From a virus, in IMG/VR virus record IMGVR_UViG_3300045136_000058, positions 1 through 26,417 of that record: a DNA stretch of 26,417 bases; one strand, written 5' to 3'. Below are positions 13,605 to 26,063 of this stretch, one piece after another. Position 1 is the first letter of the stretch. Each line of letters opens with the position of its first letter. The notes under the pieces were generated by a model, which made no database searches, had not been told where the DNA came from, and was given only the letters and a program-made list of their open reading frames with translations. The position numbers and the translations under genes were made by a program.

Positions 13605-14158
13605 TCATTGTCGGGCTCATTTGAATCTTCACTTGTCTTGCCGAAGGGAAACAAGCCGGCTACCGCTTCTCTTTGCGTCAATACGTGCTCGTGCTTAGTT
13701 GCAGCGTATGCGCCGTCCATCTTATTCAAGATGTCCATTGCACGTTGCCTGTCTCTTTCTGTTATGATTCGCTTGCGGCCGTCCGGTAGTGTTAAGATTT
13801 CAATATGCTGATTGCCGACTTTTTTTAAGTCAGTTGGCGCATTAACAATGAAACTGAGGTATTCCATACGTTCGAGGCGGCTCATGATATTTTTTTGTAT
13901 TTCTTTTGCTTCTTTCTCGATTCTTTGCATTACTTTTTCCTGTACAAGTTCGAGTTCTTTTTGATATTGAATTTCAGCATCACGAAGGCGTCGGTCGAAA
14001 GTTCTTACGCAGATATTTTGCCAGTTTTTGAAAAAATTTTCAATAATTTGAGCTCTATTTGCTCCTTTTCTGAGCATTTCAACTATGAAGCTTATCTGCG
14101 CTTGTTCATGTGGTTTTTTATGTCTGCCCATAAGGTTTACCGTTTCGTTTGATTTCAA
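13601..14158 (-). CDS. Small terminase subunit-like DNA-binding protein
   Basis: 185 residues immediately upstream of the large terminase gene with a 4-nt overlap. The N-terminus (GRHKKPHEQAQISFIVEMLRKGANRAQIIENFFKNW, about 11-46) has a helix-turn-helix pattern, followed by a long charged helix (DAEIQYQKELELVQEKVMQRIEKEAKEIQKN) suitable for ring assembly. Size, order and HTH-plus-coiled-coil layout fit a small terminase that recognises viral DNA. Overlaps the end of the methyltransferase gene by 41 nt; a later ATG (MGRHKKPH, 14131) would reduce that overlap to 14 nt. Confidence 0.8.
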   Translation of the reverse strand: MKSNETVNLMGRHKKPHEQAQISFIVEMLRKGANRAQIIENFFKNWQNICVRTFDRRLRDAEIQYQKELELVQEKVMQRIEKEAKEIQKNIMSRLERMEYLSFIVNAPTDLKKVGNQHIEILTLPDGRKRIITERDRQRAMDILNKMDGAYAATKHEHVLTQREAVAGLFPFGKTSEDSNEPDNE

Positions 14159-15344
14159 GCGATGGGTCGAGATTTCGCATGCGGTTGATGATTATCTGAC
14201 AGTATTGTGGTGATATTTCCATGCCGTAACATTTGCGTTTAAGTTGGTGGGCGGCAACCATTGTTGTGCCTGTGCCGCAGAATAAATCTAAACAACTTTG
14301 TACGCTAAAGTTTTCAATGAAATAAGCAGCAAACGCAATTGGAAATGTAGCTTTATGAAATTTTGAAAACTCTTTATCTTGTCTGCTTTTAATGAAAATA
14401 ATGTTTTCTAAATTGCCTCTAAATTTTTTAACACCTATTCTTCTTGTAGCACTTTCACCAAACACATAAACAAATTCAAATCTACTATTTAGTACATTAT
14501 CACACATTGCTGGCTCTGCTTGCATTTTATCCCAAATAATGTAATCGCAAAACCATTCTTTCATATCTGCCAAGTATTCAATTAGTGTTATTTTATTACC
14601 TGCTACCGATTGAACATTTACAAAAGAAAATATTGAATTTAGAACAGCATTTTTAGTGGATCGTTCCAATAATTGCAAATACTCAATAGCACTCTTATTA
14701 TCGCTATCGTTTTGATATTTCTGCTTATTACCGTTTGGCGTTCTACCTACGTTGTAAGGTGGACTATGAACTGTTATATCCGCTTTCTCTCCATTCATCA
14801 ATTTAGCCACGTGTTCGGCATTTGTGCTGTCACCGCAAAGTAATCGATGTGGGCCGATTTCAAATAAGTCACCTGGAACAATATCTGTTTCAATTTCTTC
14901 AGGTATTTCATAGTTATCTTCTGATGCTTGTAATTGAGTATTTTTAATTTCAAGTCCTAATTCCAAAGGCTCAATTCCGACCTCTTCGCAGACAACCTCT
15001 GCGACCTCAAGGTCTTCAACATAGTTATGCTTGGATACTGTATTATCAAGTATTTTCATTTTAGCGCCTTCTGGACTGTTAATATCCAGGTCAAGGCGCT
15101 GCACGACAACAAGTTCGTCGCCGGTTGTTTCCACTACTTTAACCTTGTTGATGCCAAGCTCTTCGCACTTTTTTACGGTTTTATTGCCAGCGATAAGAAT
15201 ACCGTTTTTATCCGCAAGCACCGAGCGTCCGGCACCAAGTTCTTTGAGTGATTTTTCGAGCAGCTGAGCACCATATTCGCTACCTTTGTTGATGTTCTTT
15301 TCGTCAAAGACAAGGTCTTGGAGCTGTTGAATTTTCTTTGCCAT
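14118..15344 (-). CDS. ParB-like N-terminal domain fused to DNA methyltransferase
   Basis: 408 residues from ATG 15344, chosen because it follows the upstream stop by 1 nt; an upstream in-frame ATG at 15455 would overlap that gene by 110 nt. Residues ~1-110 resemble the ParB/sulfiredoxin-like domain (KSLKELGAGRSVLADKNGILIAGNKTVKKCEELG). Residues ~155-395 are an amino-methyltransferase: motif IV HSPPYN at 193-198, then motif I DLFCGTGTT at 353-361 and GMEISPQYCQIIINR. Motif IV before motif I means the beta class; SPPY rather than DPPY is more typical of N4-cytosine enzymes, though m6A cannot be excluded. Phages use such orphan enzymes to mask restriction sites or mark their DNA. Target unknown. 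Confidence 0.88.
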   Translation of the reverse strand: MAKKIQQLQDLVFDEKNINKGSEYGAQLLEKSLKELGAGRSVLADKNGILIAGNKTVKKCEELGINKVKVVETTGDELVVVQRLDLDINSPEGAKMKILDNTVSKHNYVEDLEVAEVVCEEVGIEPLELGLEIKNTQLQASEDNYEIPEEIETDIVPGDLFEIGPHRLLCGDSTNAEHVAKLMNGEKADITVHSPPYNVGRTPNGNKQKYQNDSDNKSAIEYLQLLERSTKNAVLNSIFSFVNVQSVAGNKITLIEYLADMKEWFCDYIIWDKMQAEPAMCDNVLNSRFEFVYVFGESATRRIGVKKFRGNLENIIFIKSRQDKEFSKFHKATFPIAFAAYFIENFSVQSCLDLFCGTGTTMVAAHQLKRKCYGMEISPQYCQIIINRMRNLDPSLEIKRNGKPYGQT

Positions 15345-15345
15345 A

Positions 15346-15816
15346 TTATGCAGTGTAGTTTTGTAATTTCTCAAATTCGATAACACATACCAGTGGGTTT
15401 TCGTTCCAAGCGTTATCGCCGTGTATATTGTTCCAGAGTTCCTCAAACATTGCAATCATAAGTGGGTAATAGCCGATAGTGCTGTTTATACCTTCCGCTC
15501 TGAGGTCTTGTTCTGAAATATCATGCAGTCGTTCTTTTCGTACGTTCGTAACTTTGAGAAATAATCTGGCGGCATCTTTCGGCATGAAAATGCTTGGCCG
15601 CCATTTTATTTGCAACTTTTCAAGTTCTTGATAATTAAAATCTGCTTTGTAGATATAACTATCACCTTGTTTCGAATAAGTTTCCTTCACATATAACGTA
15701 TCGCCTTTCTGTATACGGCACTCTTCATCTAATTCAGAAGCAATGCGCCGTGTTTGAGTTTTTATTCCCGCTTTAATTGCTTTGACCATTTCGGTTGAAA
15801 AGAGTATTGACTTCAT
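15346..15816 (-). CDS. ASCH-domain protein
   Basis: 156 residues. 'MKSILFSTEMVKAIKAGIKTQTRR' at the N-terminus, 'KGDTLYVKETY', 'KWRPSIFMPKDAARLFLKVTNVRKERLHDISEQDLRAEGI' and 'NPLVCVIEFEKL' are the successive elements of phage-type ASCH proteins, a PUA-like fold linked to RNA or nucleotide binding. Between them lies the usual W-containing segment. It is the first protein gene of the leftward cluster, next to the tRNA genes and 1 nt from the methyltransferase. A role in RNA or modified-nucleotide handling is inferred from the fold, not shown. Confidence 0.85.
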   Translation of the reverse strand: MKSILFSTEMVKAIKAGIKTQTRRIASELDEECRIQKGDTLYVKETYSKQGDSYIYKADFNYQELEKLQIKWRPSIFMPKDAARLFLKVTNVRKERLHDISEQDLRAEGINSTIGYYPLMIAMFEELWNNIHGDNAWNENPLVCVIEFEKLQNYTA

Positions 15817-15984: not shown

Positions 15985-16060
15985 TGGGGCACCATGCGGG
16001 ACTCGAACCCACGACCTGGCGGATTAATTCCAGCCGCTCTACCAGCTGAGCTAATGGTGC
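15985..16060 (-). tRNA. tRNA gene with unusual anticodon loop (UUA by standard numbering), CCA encoded
   Basis: 73-nt body plus an encoded CCA (15985-15987). Acceptor GCACCAT/ATGGTGC is perfect, D arm GCTC/GAGC and T arm GTGGG/CCCGC good. Standard numbering gives anticodon stem GCTGG/CCGCC, with a C28-C42 mismatch, and loop AATTAAT, so anticodon UUA, which would pair with the stop codon UAA, and A instead of the near-universal U33. By resemblance to tRNA-Asn loops (GTTAA) the anticodon could instead be read as AUU. Identity is unresolved; tRNA nature is secure. Confidence 0.75.
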
Positions 16061-20415: not shown

Positions 20416-20982
20416 TTAACGATTTACAATTTTTTGCAACTCATCAGCCCAGAAGATATTTCCGCTTGTATTCTGATTTGTTTTTCTTGGTGGCCACAAT
20501 CCAATCCAGCCGTTGCATATCGAGCGTTCAATTGAAGTGATGGCCTGCTGCTCTGATAGACTTGCAAGCATCTTCAGCTGCCGTGCTGCTGACATCTTTG
20601 TTACTGGTTTCTTTAACTCACGGCTTCGGTATTGTAGCCAATTATTCCACGCTTGCCTGAATCTTTCACCGTGAGGAAGCATCTGGATAACATTCGTTTT
20701 TTCTGGCTCCTTACGTGGTTTTTTCTGTTTAATATTCAGAAAAAAAAACTGTTCATCGTAATCAAATAGATTAAATTTTTTAATTACCGCCAGAACTTTT
20801 TCCTGCTCTACCTGCATGCTTGCAGCAAGTGCAGGGACGGTTGCGAAAGGCAGCTTACCGTTCGCCTCGTGCAGGCGTTCTACGAGAAACCAATAGATGC
20901 CGTAGCCTTCGATGCCTAATTCCGAACGCATCAACATGATGTTGATATCGTTGTAGGTGTCGGTGTGGTGCTTGATTATCAT
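20416..20982 (-). CDS. DUF4373-type phage replication protein
   Basis: 188 residues. The N-terminus (KHHTDTYNDINIMLMRSELGIEGYGIYWFLVERLHEANGKLP, about 4-45) is the hallmark of the DUF4373 (Lin1244/Lin1753-like) domain, a winged-helix-like module at the start of phage replication initiator or DnaD-like proteins. A Lys-rich linker (KQKKPRKEPEKTN) leads to a C-terminal helical part (FRQAWNNWLQYRSRELKKPVTKMSAARQLKMLASLSEQQAITSIERSICNGWIGLWPP) resembling the C-terminus of such initiators. It likely binds the origin or recruits the helicase. The candidate origin lies upstream at 21824-22509. Confidence 0.82.
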   Translation of the reverse strand: MIIKHHTDTYNDINIMLMRSELGIEGYGIYWFLVERLHEANGKLPFATVPALAASMQVEQEKVLAVIKKFNLFDYDEQFFFLNIKQKKPRKEPEKTNVIQMLPHGERFRQAWNNWLQYRSRELKKPVTKMSAARQLKMLASLSEQQAITSIERSICNGWIGLWPPRKTNQNTSGNIFWADELQKIVNR

Positions 20983-21559: not shown

Positions 21560-21823
21560 CTATTGCAGGTTAACAATTTCAATCATGCGGCTATTCTCTT
21601 CGGTTTTGATTTTCAGATAACCAAACTGCTCAAGCTGCTTCATCAATTTACTGATGTAGTAGTAATTGATGTTTAACAGCTCTGCGATTTGGCTCTGGGT
21701 TATTTCCGGCATTTTCAAGAGAATGCCGTATAAGATTTTTGCGCTGAATGAAAGCCGAGAATCTTTCAGGATGCTGATAGGGATTTCGATGCTGTCCATA
21801 GGTGCTGTTTTAATCTGGAGCAA
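21560..21823 (-). CDS. Winged helix-turn-helix protein (87 aa)
   Basis: 87 residues; MDSIEIPISILKDSRLSFSAKILYGILLKMPEITQSQIAELLNINYYYISKLMKQLEQFGYLKI shows a winged-helix layout: helix, helix, recognition helix (about 50-64), then a beta wing (FGYLKIKTEENSRMIEIVNL). An ATG at 21799 (MDSIEIPIS) is an alternative start. Such domains occur in phage replication initiators and small regulators. First gene of the leftward operon, facing the repeat-rich region, so it may bind there and control its own operon or the origin. Confidence 0.75.
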   Translation of the reverse strand: MLQIKTAPMDSIEIPISILKDSRLSFSAKILYGILLKMPEITQSQIAELLNINYYYISKLMKQLEQFGYLKIKTEENSRMIEIVNLQ

Positions 21824-21896
21824 AAAAATACTTTTTTCTGCTTTAAAAAAAATTTTTGTCGATTTTTTTTTATTACTACTTTAATATATATCTAAC

Positions 21897-21911
21897 GATA
21901 GTAATACTATC
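21897..21911. promoter_or_regulatory. Inverted repeat upstream of the leftward replication operon
   Basis: GATAGT-AAT-ACTATC, perfect 6-bp arms with a 3-nt centre, 74 nt upstream of the winged-helix gene. Size and position fit an operator for a dimeric regulator, possibly the winged-helix protein itself. Inference only. Confidence 0.4.
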
Positions 21912-21951
21912 ATAAAAAAAAGTAAAGCTATTGCCAATATATCTCTTATAT

Positions 21952-22090
21952 GTTCTGCTACCTTTCTATTCTAAGGTTACCTGTAATAGATAGTAAGTAG
22001 TAAATAATAATATATAATATATACTATAAACAAGTTCTTTCTTTTCTTTTTTTTTTAGTTCTGCTAATCGTTCTAATAAAGGTTACCTGT
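21952..22090. repeat. Pair of 33-bp direct repeats 106 bp apart
   Basis: GTTCTGCTA-N12-AAGGTTACCTGT occurs at 21952-21984 and again at 22058-22090. Both outer blocks are identical and the 12-nt inner spacer has the same length but mostly different sequence, which implies selection on the blocks. AGGT-T-ACCT within the second block is itself an inverted repeat. The 106-bp offset is close to ten helical turns, so both copies face the same side of the DNA. Confidence 0.75.
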
Positions 22091-22118
22091 TACTTTTTTT
22101 TTCTTTTCTTTCTTTGCA

Positions 22119-22143
22119 GCGAAAAATCGACGAAAAATCGTCG
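22119..22143. repeat. Iteron-like GCGAAAAATCG repeats with CGACGA hairpin
   Basis: GCGAAAAATCG (22119-22129) is followed directly by ACGAAAAATCG (22130-22140), and the junction forms a perfect stem CGACGA/TCGTCG with loop AAAA (22128-22143). A reverse-complement relative with one more T (CGATTTTTTCGC) lies at 22213-22224. Short tandem motifs plus a hairpin are typical origin elements. Confidence 0.6.
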
Positions 22144-22394
22144 ATGAATTGCATTTCAATCGCTTGTCAATTGCTTTTTTGAATTTAAAAAATATAAATT
22201 AGTTTTAAGGCCGATTTTTTCGCATTAGAACGATTTTCTTTTTTCGCTAATATTTGTACTTGCCGAAATGAAATAATTAAACCTGGCACAAGCCATTGCG
22301 TTTGTGTGCGTTATCAAACATTTGGAAGAGTTGTGCTGAAAAGTTTTTTGTTGGGCCGGCCGGCGTTAAAAATTTTTTTAATGATTAGCATAAT

Positions 22395-22459
22395 TATATA
22401 TTTAAATATATATAGTTAGTTAGTGCGGCCTAAAAATTTTTTCGCAAAAAATTTTTTGC
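22395..22459. repeat. A/T palindromes and phased A-tracts upstream of the recombination operon
   Basis: TATATATTTAAATATATA (22395-22412) is an 18-bp perfect palindrome, and GCAAAAAATTTTTTGC (22444-22459) a 16-bp one. A-to-T junctions at 22436/37, 22451/52 and about 22466/67 are 15 bp apart. Such tracts bend DNA and melt easily. A further weakly similar palindrome lies in the 16273 promoter. Confidence 0.55.
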
Positions 22460-22509
22460 TTTAGAATTTTTTTTTAAATCTTTGCTCGTGTAATTCAACC
22501 ACAAAGCAT

Positions 22510-24366
22510 ATGGTAATCAAAAAAATCAAAATCAGCCAATTCAAGGGCATTCACGCACTTGAATTTGAACTCGGCCAAACGACAAGAATTTCAGGCCGCA
22601 ACGGTTCAGGAAAGACCACAATCCTTGACGCAATCTACTGGTGCTTATTCGGAAAAAACCTGGAAGACGCCAAAGATTTCGGCGTGAAGCCTTATGGTTC
22701 CAGGAACGCCGAGCCGACCGTAGAGTTGACAATTGATGTCAACGGTAAACAATTCAAGCTGCGCCGTACACTCAAAGAAAAGTGGACAAGGGTGCGGGGC
22801 GCTAATGAGTTGACCCTTACCGGCCACGAAACCGAGTACGCCGTGGACGATGTAATCGTCTCGGCTACACAGTTCAACGCTTTCGCTGAAGATATTACCG
22901 GCGGTGAGCAATTATTTAAGGTTCTAAGCTCACCTAAGTATTTTTCGAACTACTTTAATGTCAAAGAGCGCCGCAAGATGCTTGCCGAGGCGCTGGAACT
23001 GGCTCAGATTGAGCAGGCGCTCAAAAAACAGTACGAGCTGCCTGAAGATGTGGAAGGCCTGGCCAATACCGTACGGGCCAAGAAAGCACGGCTGAAGGAT
23101 GATTTGCAGCAGTTCCCAATACGTATCGCCGAGCTTGAGCACTCGATACTTGAAGTCCCGGAACATCAGAAGCTACTGGACGAGAAGCAGCAACTTCAGG
23201 CGTGGCTTCTCGAATTGAACTTGCAAGAGAAAGCAATAGCAGTGCATTCCGAGCAGCTGATGCAAGAATATAACCGCAAGCTGCAAGAGGTTGAGAAGCA
23301 GCGGCAAGCAATACGGAAGCAATTTATCGAGCTTGAAAACCGCAAGACACTTGCAATAACTAAGTATCAGGAAGATTTAGCAGTCTTCACCCATGCGCAG
23401 CGGCAATTTGAAGAGCTTCAAAGCCAGCTTGAACGCTATACACTTGAAAAGAATCAACTTGTTAGCGAGCTGGAAAGTCTAAGAAAGGAATTTCTGCAAG
23501 TCGGTAATGAAATATATCAACCGATAACTGGAGGCAAATGCCAGTACTGTGGGCAGCCGCTACCGGCCGAGAAGCTGGATGAGCAGAACCAGAAAATGCA
23601 GCTTGAGTTTAACGAAAGCAAGAGGCGGCGCCTTGCACAGATTGAAGAGCGAGGCAAGCTGGTACGTAAGCAAGCGGACGACCTTGAAGCAAGACTCGCT
23701 TCTATAACCTCGCATCTGAATGAACTCGCTTCTAAGATTAAACAGCCGCAAGAACCTGTTTTTGATGAACGTAAAAAACTTGAATTGCAGCAGCAGCTGG
23801 AAGCAATCAAAGACCCCGAACCGCCGGTAATCAGTACCAGCGACATCAGCAGCAAGCGTGAAGAACTTAATGCAAGGATAAATGCTATTGATGTGGAATT
23901 GGCGAAGATTGAAATCAATAACAAGACCCGTGCACGCATTACCGAACTGAATACGCAGTGGGGTGCGATGAGTAATGAACTGGCAGAGCTCGAACGACTG
24001 GAAATCAAGATTGACGAGTACAACGTTCGGCTCAGTCAGATGGTAGAAGATGTTGCCGTGCAACAAATCGGTGACCCGAACCTCAAGATAAGGCTGTACA
24101 AGGTACTTCTGAACAAGAACCTTGAGACAACTTGTGACATCGTGCTGGTGCAGGAAGGCAGGGAAGTACCGTTCAAAGACTTGAACCATGCCTCGCAAGT
24201 GCACGTCGGCTGCAAGCTGATACAGTTCCTGAGCCGCAAGCTGAACCGTCAAGCCCCGGTAATTATTGACAACGCTGAATCACTGAACCAATTACCGGAC
24301 GTGAGCGTACAAAAAATTGCAACTTTTGTTACAGAATCTGAAATGGAAATCGTAAATTTAAACTAA
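22510..24366 (+). CDS. Rad50/SbcC-like recombination ATPase with zinc hook
   Basis: 618 residues. Residues 1-150 form an SMC-type ATPase head with Walker A GRNGSGKT (29-36) and a Q-loop-like ATQFNAF (119-125). Residues ~155-330 and ~355-510 are coiled coils flanking a CQYCGQPL zinc-hook motif (Cys344, Cys347). The C-terminal head contains NHASQVHVGCKLIQFL where the LSGGE signature is expected, and Walker B VIIDNAE (584-590). The family tethers and processes DNA ends. It is shorter than cellular SbcC (~1000) and its signature motif is unorthodox. No SbcD/Mre11 nuclease gene is in the window. First gene of the rightward operon, 12 nt before recT. Confidence 0.88.
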   Translation: MVIKKIKISQFKGIHALEFELGQTTRISGRNGSGKTTILDAIYWCLFGKNLEDAKDFGVKPYGSRNAEPTVELTIDVNGKQFKLRRTLKEKWTRVRGANELTLTGHETEYAVDDVIVSATQFNAFAEDITGGEQLFKVLSSPKYFSNYFNVKERRKMLAEALELAQIEQALKKQYELPEDVEGLANTVRAKKARLKDDLQQFPIRIAELEHSILEVPEHQKLLDEKQQLQAWLLELNLQEKAIAVHSEQLMQEYNRKLQEVEKQRQAIRKQFIELENRKTLAITKYQEDLAVFTHAQRQFEELQSQLERYTLEKNQLVSELESLRKEFLQVGNEIYQPITGGKCQYCGQPLPAEKLDEQNQKMQLEFNESKRRRLAQIEERGKLVRKQADDLEARLASITSHLNELASKIKQPQEPVFDERKKLELQQQLEAIKDPEPPVISTSDISSKREELNARINAIDVELAKIEINNKTRARITELNTQWGAMSNELAELERLEIKIDEYNVRLSQMVEDVAVQQIGDPNLKIRLYKVLLNKNLETTCDIVLVQEGREVPFKDLNHASQVHVGCKLIQFLSRKLNRQAPVIIDNAESLNQLPDVSVQKIATFVTESEMEIVNLN

Positions 24367-24378
24367 ACTTTAACGCAT

Positions 24379-25254
24379 ATGGAACAGACGACAGTACCTA
24401 CTACTCAGAGGTTGAACATTTCTGAAATTGTGAACAAGCTGGAACAAACCGTTCAACAACTGCAAGAAAAAGGCAGCTTACAACTGCCGGCTGATTACAG
24501 TGCAGGTAATGCACTGCGTGCCGCAGCGCTGATATTGTCAGAGCTGAAAACAAAAGACGACAAACCGGTAACCGAAGCCTGCACCGGTGCATCAATTAAC
24601 AACGCACTGCTGCGCATGCTTACGTTCGGACTTAACCCTATGCGCAATCAATGCTACTTCGTACCTTACGGTAACGAGCTCGTGCTGATGGTTAGCTACT
24701 TCGGTAAACTTGCAATGGCAAGACGTGCAGGACTCGAGTTTATTAACCCGAACGTAGTGTATGAAGGCGATGACTTTGAGTACACCGTCAACCCTGATAC
24801 GGGTCAGAAGATTTTAGTCCGGCATAAGCAAGCACTGAAAAACATCAGCGATGACAAGATGCTTGGTGCTTATGCTATTTACCGGGTAAGCGGCATCACT
24901 AATATGGAAGTGATGACGGTAAAGGAAATCAAACAAGCGTGGCTGCAAGGTGCAGCGTATGGAAGAGAAGGCAAGAAGAGCACGCACGATAAATTCGGGC
25001 ATGAGATGGCCGTAAAGACCGTTATGAACCGTGCACTGAAGCGTGTAATAAATGCCAGCAGCGATGCGATGCAGCTCGGTTGGATTGATGATGAAGAAGA
25101 TATGGTTGAACAACCCGAAAGCAAGCTGGAAACCATCGAGCTGGAAGAGCCCAAGAATGAACAACAGCCGGTAGCTGAGATAAAGCAACAGGAAAGTAAG
25201 CCCGAAAAAGAGGCGCAAAATGCTGATAACCAGCAAGTTCAGTTGAGTTTTTAA
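24379..25254 (+). CDS. recT: RecT-family single-strand annealing protein
   Basis: 291 residues. The core (ALRAAALILSEL, SINNALLRMLTFGLNPMRNQCYFVPYGNELVLMVSYFGKLAMARRAG, about 45-118; ISDDKMLGAYAIYRVSGITNMEVMTVKEIKQAW; HEMAVKTVMNRALKRVINAS) is a textbook RecT/Bet-type sequence. The protein binds ssDNA and anneals complementary strands during phage recombination. The last ~55 residues are a Glu/Gln/Lys-rich, probably disordered tail ending VQLSF. Lies between the SbcC-like ATPase and an MBL-fold hydrolase, making a recombination module. Start ATG follows a 'gcat' context like the upstream gene. Confidence 0.95.
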   Translation: MEQTTVPTTQRLNISEIVNKLEQTVQQLQEKGSLQLPADYSAGNALRAAALILSELKTKDDKPVTEACTGASINNALLRMLTFGLNPMRNQCYFVPYGNELVLMVSYFGKLAMARRAGLEFINPNVVYEGDDFEYTVNPDTGQKILVRHKQALKNISDDKMLGAYAIYRVSGITNMEVMTVKEIKQAWLQGAAYGREGKKSTHDKFGHEMAVKTVMNRALKRVINASSDAMQLGWIDDEEDMVEQPESKLETIELEEPKNEQQPVAEIKQQESKPEKEAQNADNQQVQLSF

Positions 25255-25271: not shown

Positions 25272-26063
25272 ATGTCAAGTACAGAATTGTTTAAAAAACA
25301 TTTTGGTGACCAATCAGCAGTAGTTGATTTGAGGCACCCAAACATGGAAAAGTTCTTTAGTGAGCTTGCTCAAGAATGCTTGCTGGAAGAAATACCACTT
25401 TCGAGAATAGAATTCGCAGTGACCGGTACCGGTAGCAGCGGTAACGGCTACGTCCTGAATTACGACAACTACTCGATAGTAATTGAAGCAGGCCTGCCGT
25501 TTAAAAAAGTATTGCCTTTCGTACGAGGCATGATTCAACTGGTTATTGTTAGCCACGAGCACGGTGACCATGCTAAGTATCTGCCGGACTATAAGCTGCG
25601 AGGCTATCGCATCTTGACAAAGTACGGCTATGCTTCCGGTAGCCTGATAGTGAAGCCTTTCAAAGTGCAGCACGATGTCGAGACGTACGGCTACCTCATG
25701 AGGGTGCAAGACCACTACCTGGCATATATTACCGATGCTTTCGAGGCTAACTTTAAATTCACAAAACTTGACACGCTCATAATCGAAGCATCGTACGATG
25801 ATGAACTACTGGAAGAAAGTGGCTTGTCCGGTAGCATACCGCCGTTCCTGTATCAGCGCATAAAGCAGTCGCATCTTTCATTTCAGAAGTCAGTAGAGGC
25901 AGTGGCTCGTATTGAAAAAGACTGCGCACTGAAGAATGTTATATTTATCCATTTGTCAGCGCAGCGTTCGGACGAGAACAAGCTACTGAACATGGCAAGA
26001 CAAGTAACCGGTGCAAGAATCTACGTTGCAAGAAGTGGTGAAATTTACAAGTTAACTTTATGA
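25272..26063 (+). CDS. MBL-fold hydrolase, probable nuclease partner of RecT
   Basis: 263 residues. Metallo-beta-lactamase signature HEHGDH at 95-100, with further likely ligands His134 (VQHD), Asp155 (ITDAF) and His201 (SHLS). TGTGSSGNGYVL (51-62) and IIEASYDDELL are typical of the WalJ/YycJ-like MBL branch. A ~40-residue N-terminal extension precedes the fold. MBL genes next to recT are common in phages and presumed to supply a nuclease, an inference here. ATG 25272 chosen; an earlier ATG at 25264 is in another, short frame. Stop overlaps the next start as ATGA. Confidence 0.88.
   Translation: MSSTELFKKHFGDQSAVVDLRHPNMEKFFSELAQECLLEEIPLSRIEFAVTGTGSSGNGYVLNYDNYSIVIEAGLPFKKVLPFVRGMIQLVIVSHEHGDHAKYLPDYKLRGYRILTKYGYASGSLIVKPFKVQHDVETYGYLMRVQDHYLAYITDAFEANFKFTKLDTLIIEASYDDELLEESGLSGSIPPFLYQRIKQSHLSFQKSVEAVARIEKDCALKNVIFIHLSAQRSDENKLLNMARQVTGARIYVARSGEIYKLTL

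Follow-up and report, generated by a model that had tools for sequence, protein, structure and literature searches.

A two-copy bipartite repeat in a divergent gap of an uncultured phage, a possible replication origin and control region

Genomic context

The window, that is, the whole stretch of DNA analysed, comprises the 26,417 nucleotides of IMG/VR record IMGVR_UViG_3300045136_000058. It is a fragment of a tailed phage, with recognisable terminase, portal, major head protein, and tape measure protein, and the host probably belongs to the Bacteroidota. A 686-bp gap (21824-22509, 27% G+C) separates a leftward operon of replication type from a rightward operon encoding SbcC-like, RecT, and metallo-hydrolase proteins (Table 1). 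Besides a winged-helix and a Lin1244_N protein, the leftward operon encodes two short unknown proteins. The rightward cassette is also present in phages of Cellulophaga, Bacteroides, Porphyromonas, and Bacillota. Its metallo-hydrolase has a relative in a Porphyromonas phage that carries the annotation anti-Pycsar (Apyc1-like) nuclease; the protein of the window also gives a weak match to a cyclic-nucleotide phosphodiesterase model.

Elsewhere in the window, ARAGORN reports a stop-reading tRNA-like gene with anticodon UUA (15985-16060, - strand), clustered with tRNA-Thr and tRNA-Lys; on visual inspection, the anticodon arm of this gene looks imperfect. This odd tRNA raised the question of TAA recoding, but of the 32 gene models that terminate within the window, 16 use TAA as their stop codon, which makes genome-wide recoding unlikely. 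A DNA methyltransferase (14118-15455, - strand) has an N-terminal part that matches ParB-like proteins.

Table 1. Features of the divergent gap and of the operons on either side (window coordinates)
Feature	Position	Strand	Basis or remark
Lin1244_N (DUF4373-type) protein, 188 aa, C-terminal part like O-type replication initiators	20416..20982	-	profile matches
Winged-helix protein, 87 aa, first gene of leftward operon	21560..21823	-	profile matches; in-frame ATG eight codons in
15-bp perfect palindrome GATAGTAATACTATC, candidate operator near leftward start region	21897..21911	.	between leftward gene and copy 1
Copy 1 of bipartite repeat	21952..21984	+	GTTCTGCTA-CCTTTCTATTCT-AAGGTTACCTGT
Palindromic core AGGT-T-ACCT of copy 1, in right block	21974..21982	.	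motif search
AT-rich stretch between copies, 86% A+T, candidate DNA-unwinding element	21985..22057	.	nearest-neighbour energies
Copy 2 of bipartite repeat	22058..22090	+	GTTCTGCTA-ATCGTTCTAATA-AAGGTTACCTGT
GTTCTAATA, left-block variant in spacer of copy 2	22070..22078	+	
Palindromic core AGGT-T-ACCT of copy 2, in right block	22080..22088	.	motif search
Stem-loop ATCGACGATTTTTCGTCGAT then TTTT, terminator-like	22126..22145	-	about 1 such site expected by chance in stretch scanned
ATTAGAACGATT, exact inverted copy of 22066-22077 (AATCGTTCTAAT)	22224..22235	-	
Bacteroidota-type promoter-like site TTTG-N18-AATCTTTG, one mismatch	22455..22484	+	directly before rightward operon
SbcC-like ATPase, first gene of rightward operon	22510..24366	+	profile matches
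RecT-family annealing protein	24379..25254	+	profile matches
Metallo-hydrolase of SbcC-RecT cassette	25272..26063	+	

The repeat pair

The first-pass annotation described two spaced direct repeats with a 12-nt spacer at 21952-22090, lying 106 bp apart, and our analysis reproduced the coordinates, the blocks, the spacer, and the offset. The 33-bp element, GTTCTGCTA-N12-AAGGTTACCTGT, consists of two blocks (21 bases in total) and the spacer. It has exactly two copies in the 26.4-kb window, both non-coding, inside the gap, and on the + strand. At 10.5 bp per turn, their offset corresponds to 10.1 helical turns. The same annotation had noticed no other copy in the window, and this holds for a search of the whole window on either strand, exact or degenerate, where the next best matches retain only 15 of the 21 bases. 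The motif is also absent from the 6.3 kb that extend the window to the left in an identical sister contig (metagenome 3300044960).

Comparison of the two copies gives 21 identical bases of 21 in the blocks and 1 of 12 in the spacer; the 45 bases on each side match at 14/45 and 13/45 positions (27/90), for a background of 31%. Identity is limited to the two blocks and ends sharply at their edges. Since only the blocks are kept, with spacer and flanks at background, the pair does not represent a recent duplication of a 106-bp segment. The palindromic core AGGT-T-ACCT is confined, within the window, to the two copies. The gap contains 5 occurrences of GTTCT/AGAAC, where about 1 would be expected; the fifth is at 22224-22235, and another lies in GTTCTAATA of copy 2. 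The extra copies hint at an iterated half-site. A division of each copy into three 12-nt tandem iterons was judged by eye and found unconvincing.

In shuffles of the intergenic region, an in-register pair of 12 + 9 bases arose in 4 of 3000 cases with an order-2 Markov model and in 9 of 3000 with an order-3 model, the latter largely re-using observed words. With order-1 shuffles matched to the real blocks in base complexity and GC, the pair was seen in none of 20,000 simulated intergenic regions, and order-2 shuffles of the whole window gave none within 300 bp (0/200). The repeat pair is well beyond chance, in tests whose conditions were set after it had been seen. A coincidence within a long AT-rich gap, for which the order-2 and order-3 frequencies of 0.1-0.3% and a first reading that had scanned the entire window for oddities might speak, is quite improbable in view of the absence of pairs at matched complexity and in whole-window shuffles.

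DNA stability and promoter-like signals

Of the 614 windows compared in the gap, the 73-bp interval between the copies has the lowest stability. Nearest-neighbour energies place the stability minimum of the entire window at 21986-22057 for 72 bp and at 21984-22023 for 40 bp, both between the copies, and the least stable 100-bp stretch lies within or overlaps the same interval. An unwinding element with initiator sites on both sides would show such a pattern, although a promoter gap can also be AT-rich. GC skew is flat near the repeats and is confounded by gene direction. A search with stringent DnaA box patterns gave no match.

The motif GATAGTA/TACTATC has 3 occurrences in the gap. The scan for Bacteroidota promoters used the published consensus (TTTG/TAnnTTTG, PMC7366714) and gave the site before the rightward operon. 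A sigma70-like leftward site lies at 21937-21909, 15 bp from the end of copy 1, among sigma70-like sites that occur at chance level (4 found, 4.7 expected).

Candidate binding proteins

Among PHROGs, the winged-helix protein matches DnaD-like loader and replication-initiator families (E about 1e-5). It further has a weak match to phage O (E 0.004) and MarR/HTH_34-like matches, and regulator families top the Pfam and NCBIfam lists with similarly weak scores; no match to the RepA_N Pfam family was found up to E 5. Its single-sequence structure model is fair (pLDDT 79). The top Foldseek matches of this model are the N-domains of RepA initiators (4pta, 4pql, 4pt7; E about 4e-3). In VIA-align, RepA is tied in Z with LexA, MntR, and MarR, so the winged-helix fold cannot tell an initiator from a repressor. 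The 188-aa protein matches Lin1244_N (E 5e-10) and the O-like and initiation PHROGs (E 5e-8 and 7e-8); its structure model (pLDDT 37) is too poor for use.

Searches for relatives

Viral contigs contain no exact match to the bipartite motif. Relaxing the spacer and shortening the right block gave one match, a single copy in contig L182, apparently due to chance. Pairs of the core AAGGTTACCT were found in five records, none resembling the window region: those in L183, L185, and L187 look like repeats of longer segments and are probably coding, and those in L184 and L186 fall in an unrelated GC-rich GGTTACC array. The latter GGTTACC/GGTAACC arrays (L184 12400-12690 and L186 11320-11610), possibly iterons, lie in a GC-rich region of the two viral contigs and seem unrelated to the phage of the window. 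Among deposited phages, no DNA similar to the gap was found, apart from one match below E 0.01, in a Marinitoga virus (E 1e-4), located in the AT-rich interval that separates the copies.

The SbcC-like, winged-helix, RecT, terminase, and Lin1244_N proteins served as queries for relatives of the module. At the sensitivity used, no close relative was found in IMG/VR, GTDB genomes, or deposited phages, in scans that may omit records very near the window. RecT relatives reach at most about 48% identity, and homologues of the winged-helix protein, in the 48 records scanned, were found in two genomes only, with very weak matches. The terminase search gave the sister contig IMGVR_UViG_3300044960_000210, which is 100% identical over the 18.4 kb compared. 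It extends 6.3 kb past the left end of the window and ends at window position 20781, inside the Lin1244_N gene and before the repeats. Its extension carries a PAPS-reductase-like gene. The same search gave an 89% relative whose sequence spans structural genes only.

Interpretation

The repeats are probably bipartite sites bound by a protein, when the origin and operator readings are taken jointly. Of the proposals of the first-pass annotation, a bipartite protein-binding site remains the best fit, given the sharp edges, the palindrome in the right block, the lack of a shared RNA fold, and the winged-helix and Lin1244_N genes nearby. The initiator that it suggested becomes more credible through the position of the least stable DNA, between the copies; for the looping repressor, its other suggestion, the one piece of evidence is the spacing close to ten turns.

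Our preferred, still tentative, reading is that the gap may serve as the replication origin and control region of the phage, with two initiator or regulator sites bracketing an unwinding element. Binding at the repeats by an initiator or regulator, the identity of this protein, and the origin function are what we infer here, because the pair is beyond chance and conserved in its blocks alone, because the least stable DNA of the window lies between the copies, and because the gap is flanked by divergent operons, one of which encodes proteins of replication-initiation type. The RepA N-domains at the top of the Foldseek list point the same way, as does the hint of an iterated half-site given by the GTTCT copies (5 against about 1). 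There is also a tested precedent in the satellite PLE, where repeats between divergent operons are bound by a RepA_N initiator (PMC7145576). Against this reading, there are only two full copies and no stringent DnaA box, the structural match of the winged-helix protein is unspecific, with regulator families leading the lists, and AT-rich DNA is to be expected in any promoter gap. Iteron origins usually carry more than two copies.

Under the origin reading, a DNA-binding protein encoded by the phage, most plausibly the winged-helix protein or the Lin1244_N/O-like protein, would bind both 33-bp elements. Each site would comprise a AGGTTACCT core and, about two helical turns upstream, a GTTCTGCTA block on the same DNA face. 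Proteins on both sites might then contact each other across about ten turns, and this contact would strain and open the 73-bp AT stretch, where a helicase would be recruited. Occupancy of the sites may also control the leftward operon.

The main alternative, which we consider a real but lesser possibility, is that the two copies are operators of a transcription regulator, either an autoregulatory winged-helix repressor or an activator, possibly looped over ten turns and acting on the leftward operon, the rightward operon, or both, with no role in replication. The palindromic core in each copy, the additional palindrome at 21897-21911, the MarR/HTH_34-like matches of the adjoining protein, and a spacing close to an integral number of turns are all in line with it. 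So is the proximity of copy 1 to the leftward sigma70-like site, but that site is within chance numbers and not of the Bacteroidota type, and about 365 bp separate copy 2 from the rightward promoter-like site. Furthermore, operators alone do not account for the stability minimum between the copies. The repeats might instead be promoter or leader elements in tandem, or an RNA structure that recurs in a transcript of the gap; they are non-coding and on the same strand, and a terminator-like stem-loop lies nearby. Yet neither copy has a match of the TTTG/TAnnTTTG type, the RNA folds of the two copies differ from each other and do not surpass those of shuffled sequences (z -1.2 to +0.3), and an Rfam search gave no match in the repeat region, which leaves this explanation improbable. 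Integrase arm-type sites are paired direct repeats, and the pair could by this likeness be of the recombination or attachment type, or else a relic of duplication. We hold this to be very improbable: the proteins scanned in the window and its extension include no integrase (an incomplete genome with small ORFs partly scanned), and a relic would be expected to retain identity in the spacer and flanks, yet both are at background.

If the gap is an origin, replication of this uncultured phage would be controlled from between the replication and recombination operons, binding assays would have a concrete target, and the known iteron origins would gain a two-site, gap-flanking layout. An operator pair would represent ordinary phage regulation. 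It is unlikely, in our view, that the locus represents an undescribed origin layout. In such a layout, the 73-bp unwinding element would have a bipartite initiator site on either side, the two being ten turns apart, and the protein bound to both would be a winged-helix initiator that stands alone, separated from an O/DnaD-like partner.

Comparison with known systems

Seen against iteron origins, the window has an adjacent AT-rich unwinding element (the least stable 72 bp between the copies), a nearby initiator gene identified by family similarity alone, and candidate initiator sites repeated as two full copies plus partial GTTCT repeats. Lambda-type origins likewise combine initiator-type genes with repeats and an AT-rich stretch, and O-like PHROG and weak Phage_rep_O matches are found here. 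The lambda iterons lie inside the O gene, as a tight array beside the AT-rich region. Unlike these, the two sites of the window are 106 bp apart, flank the AT-rich stretch, and lie outside any gene.

RepA_N origins, such as those of PLE and of staphylococcal pSK41 and pTZ2162, are bound by a winged-helix initiator, and RepA N-domains are the top Foldseek matches of the window's winged-helix protein; in PLE, the repeats also lie between divergent operons. In PLE, a satellite in Vibrio cholerae, binding of the RepA_N initiator to repeats in the non-coding gap was tested experimentally (PMC7145576). However, the iterons of RepA_N systems are described as semi-palindromes whose inverted sub-repeats converge on a poly-A tract; the window's repeats lack such sub-repeats and have a 4+1+4 inverted core with a separate, non-inverted block. 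The window's protein also differs from RepA_N initiators in its length of 87 aa, without a C-domain and without a RepA_N Pfam match.

The looping operators of lac, gal, and lambda CI resemble the pair in having two identical sites near integral helical turns, but no promoter is convincingly placed at the window's sites, and the repressor is a candidate only. Finally, direct repeats of at least 10 nt are present in 12 of 38 other comparable AT-rich divergent gaps of phages and prophages (13 of 39 with that of the window). These repeats differ in sequence and spacing, and none has the motif of the window. Paired repeats in a divergent gap are an ordinary kind of feature, here with a private sequence.
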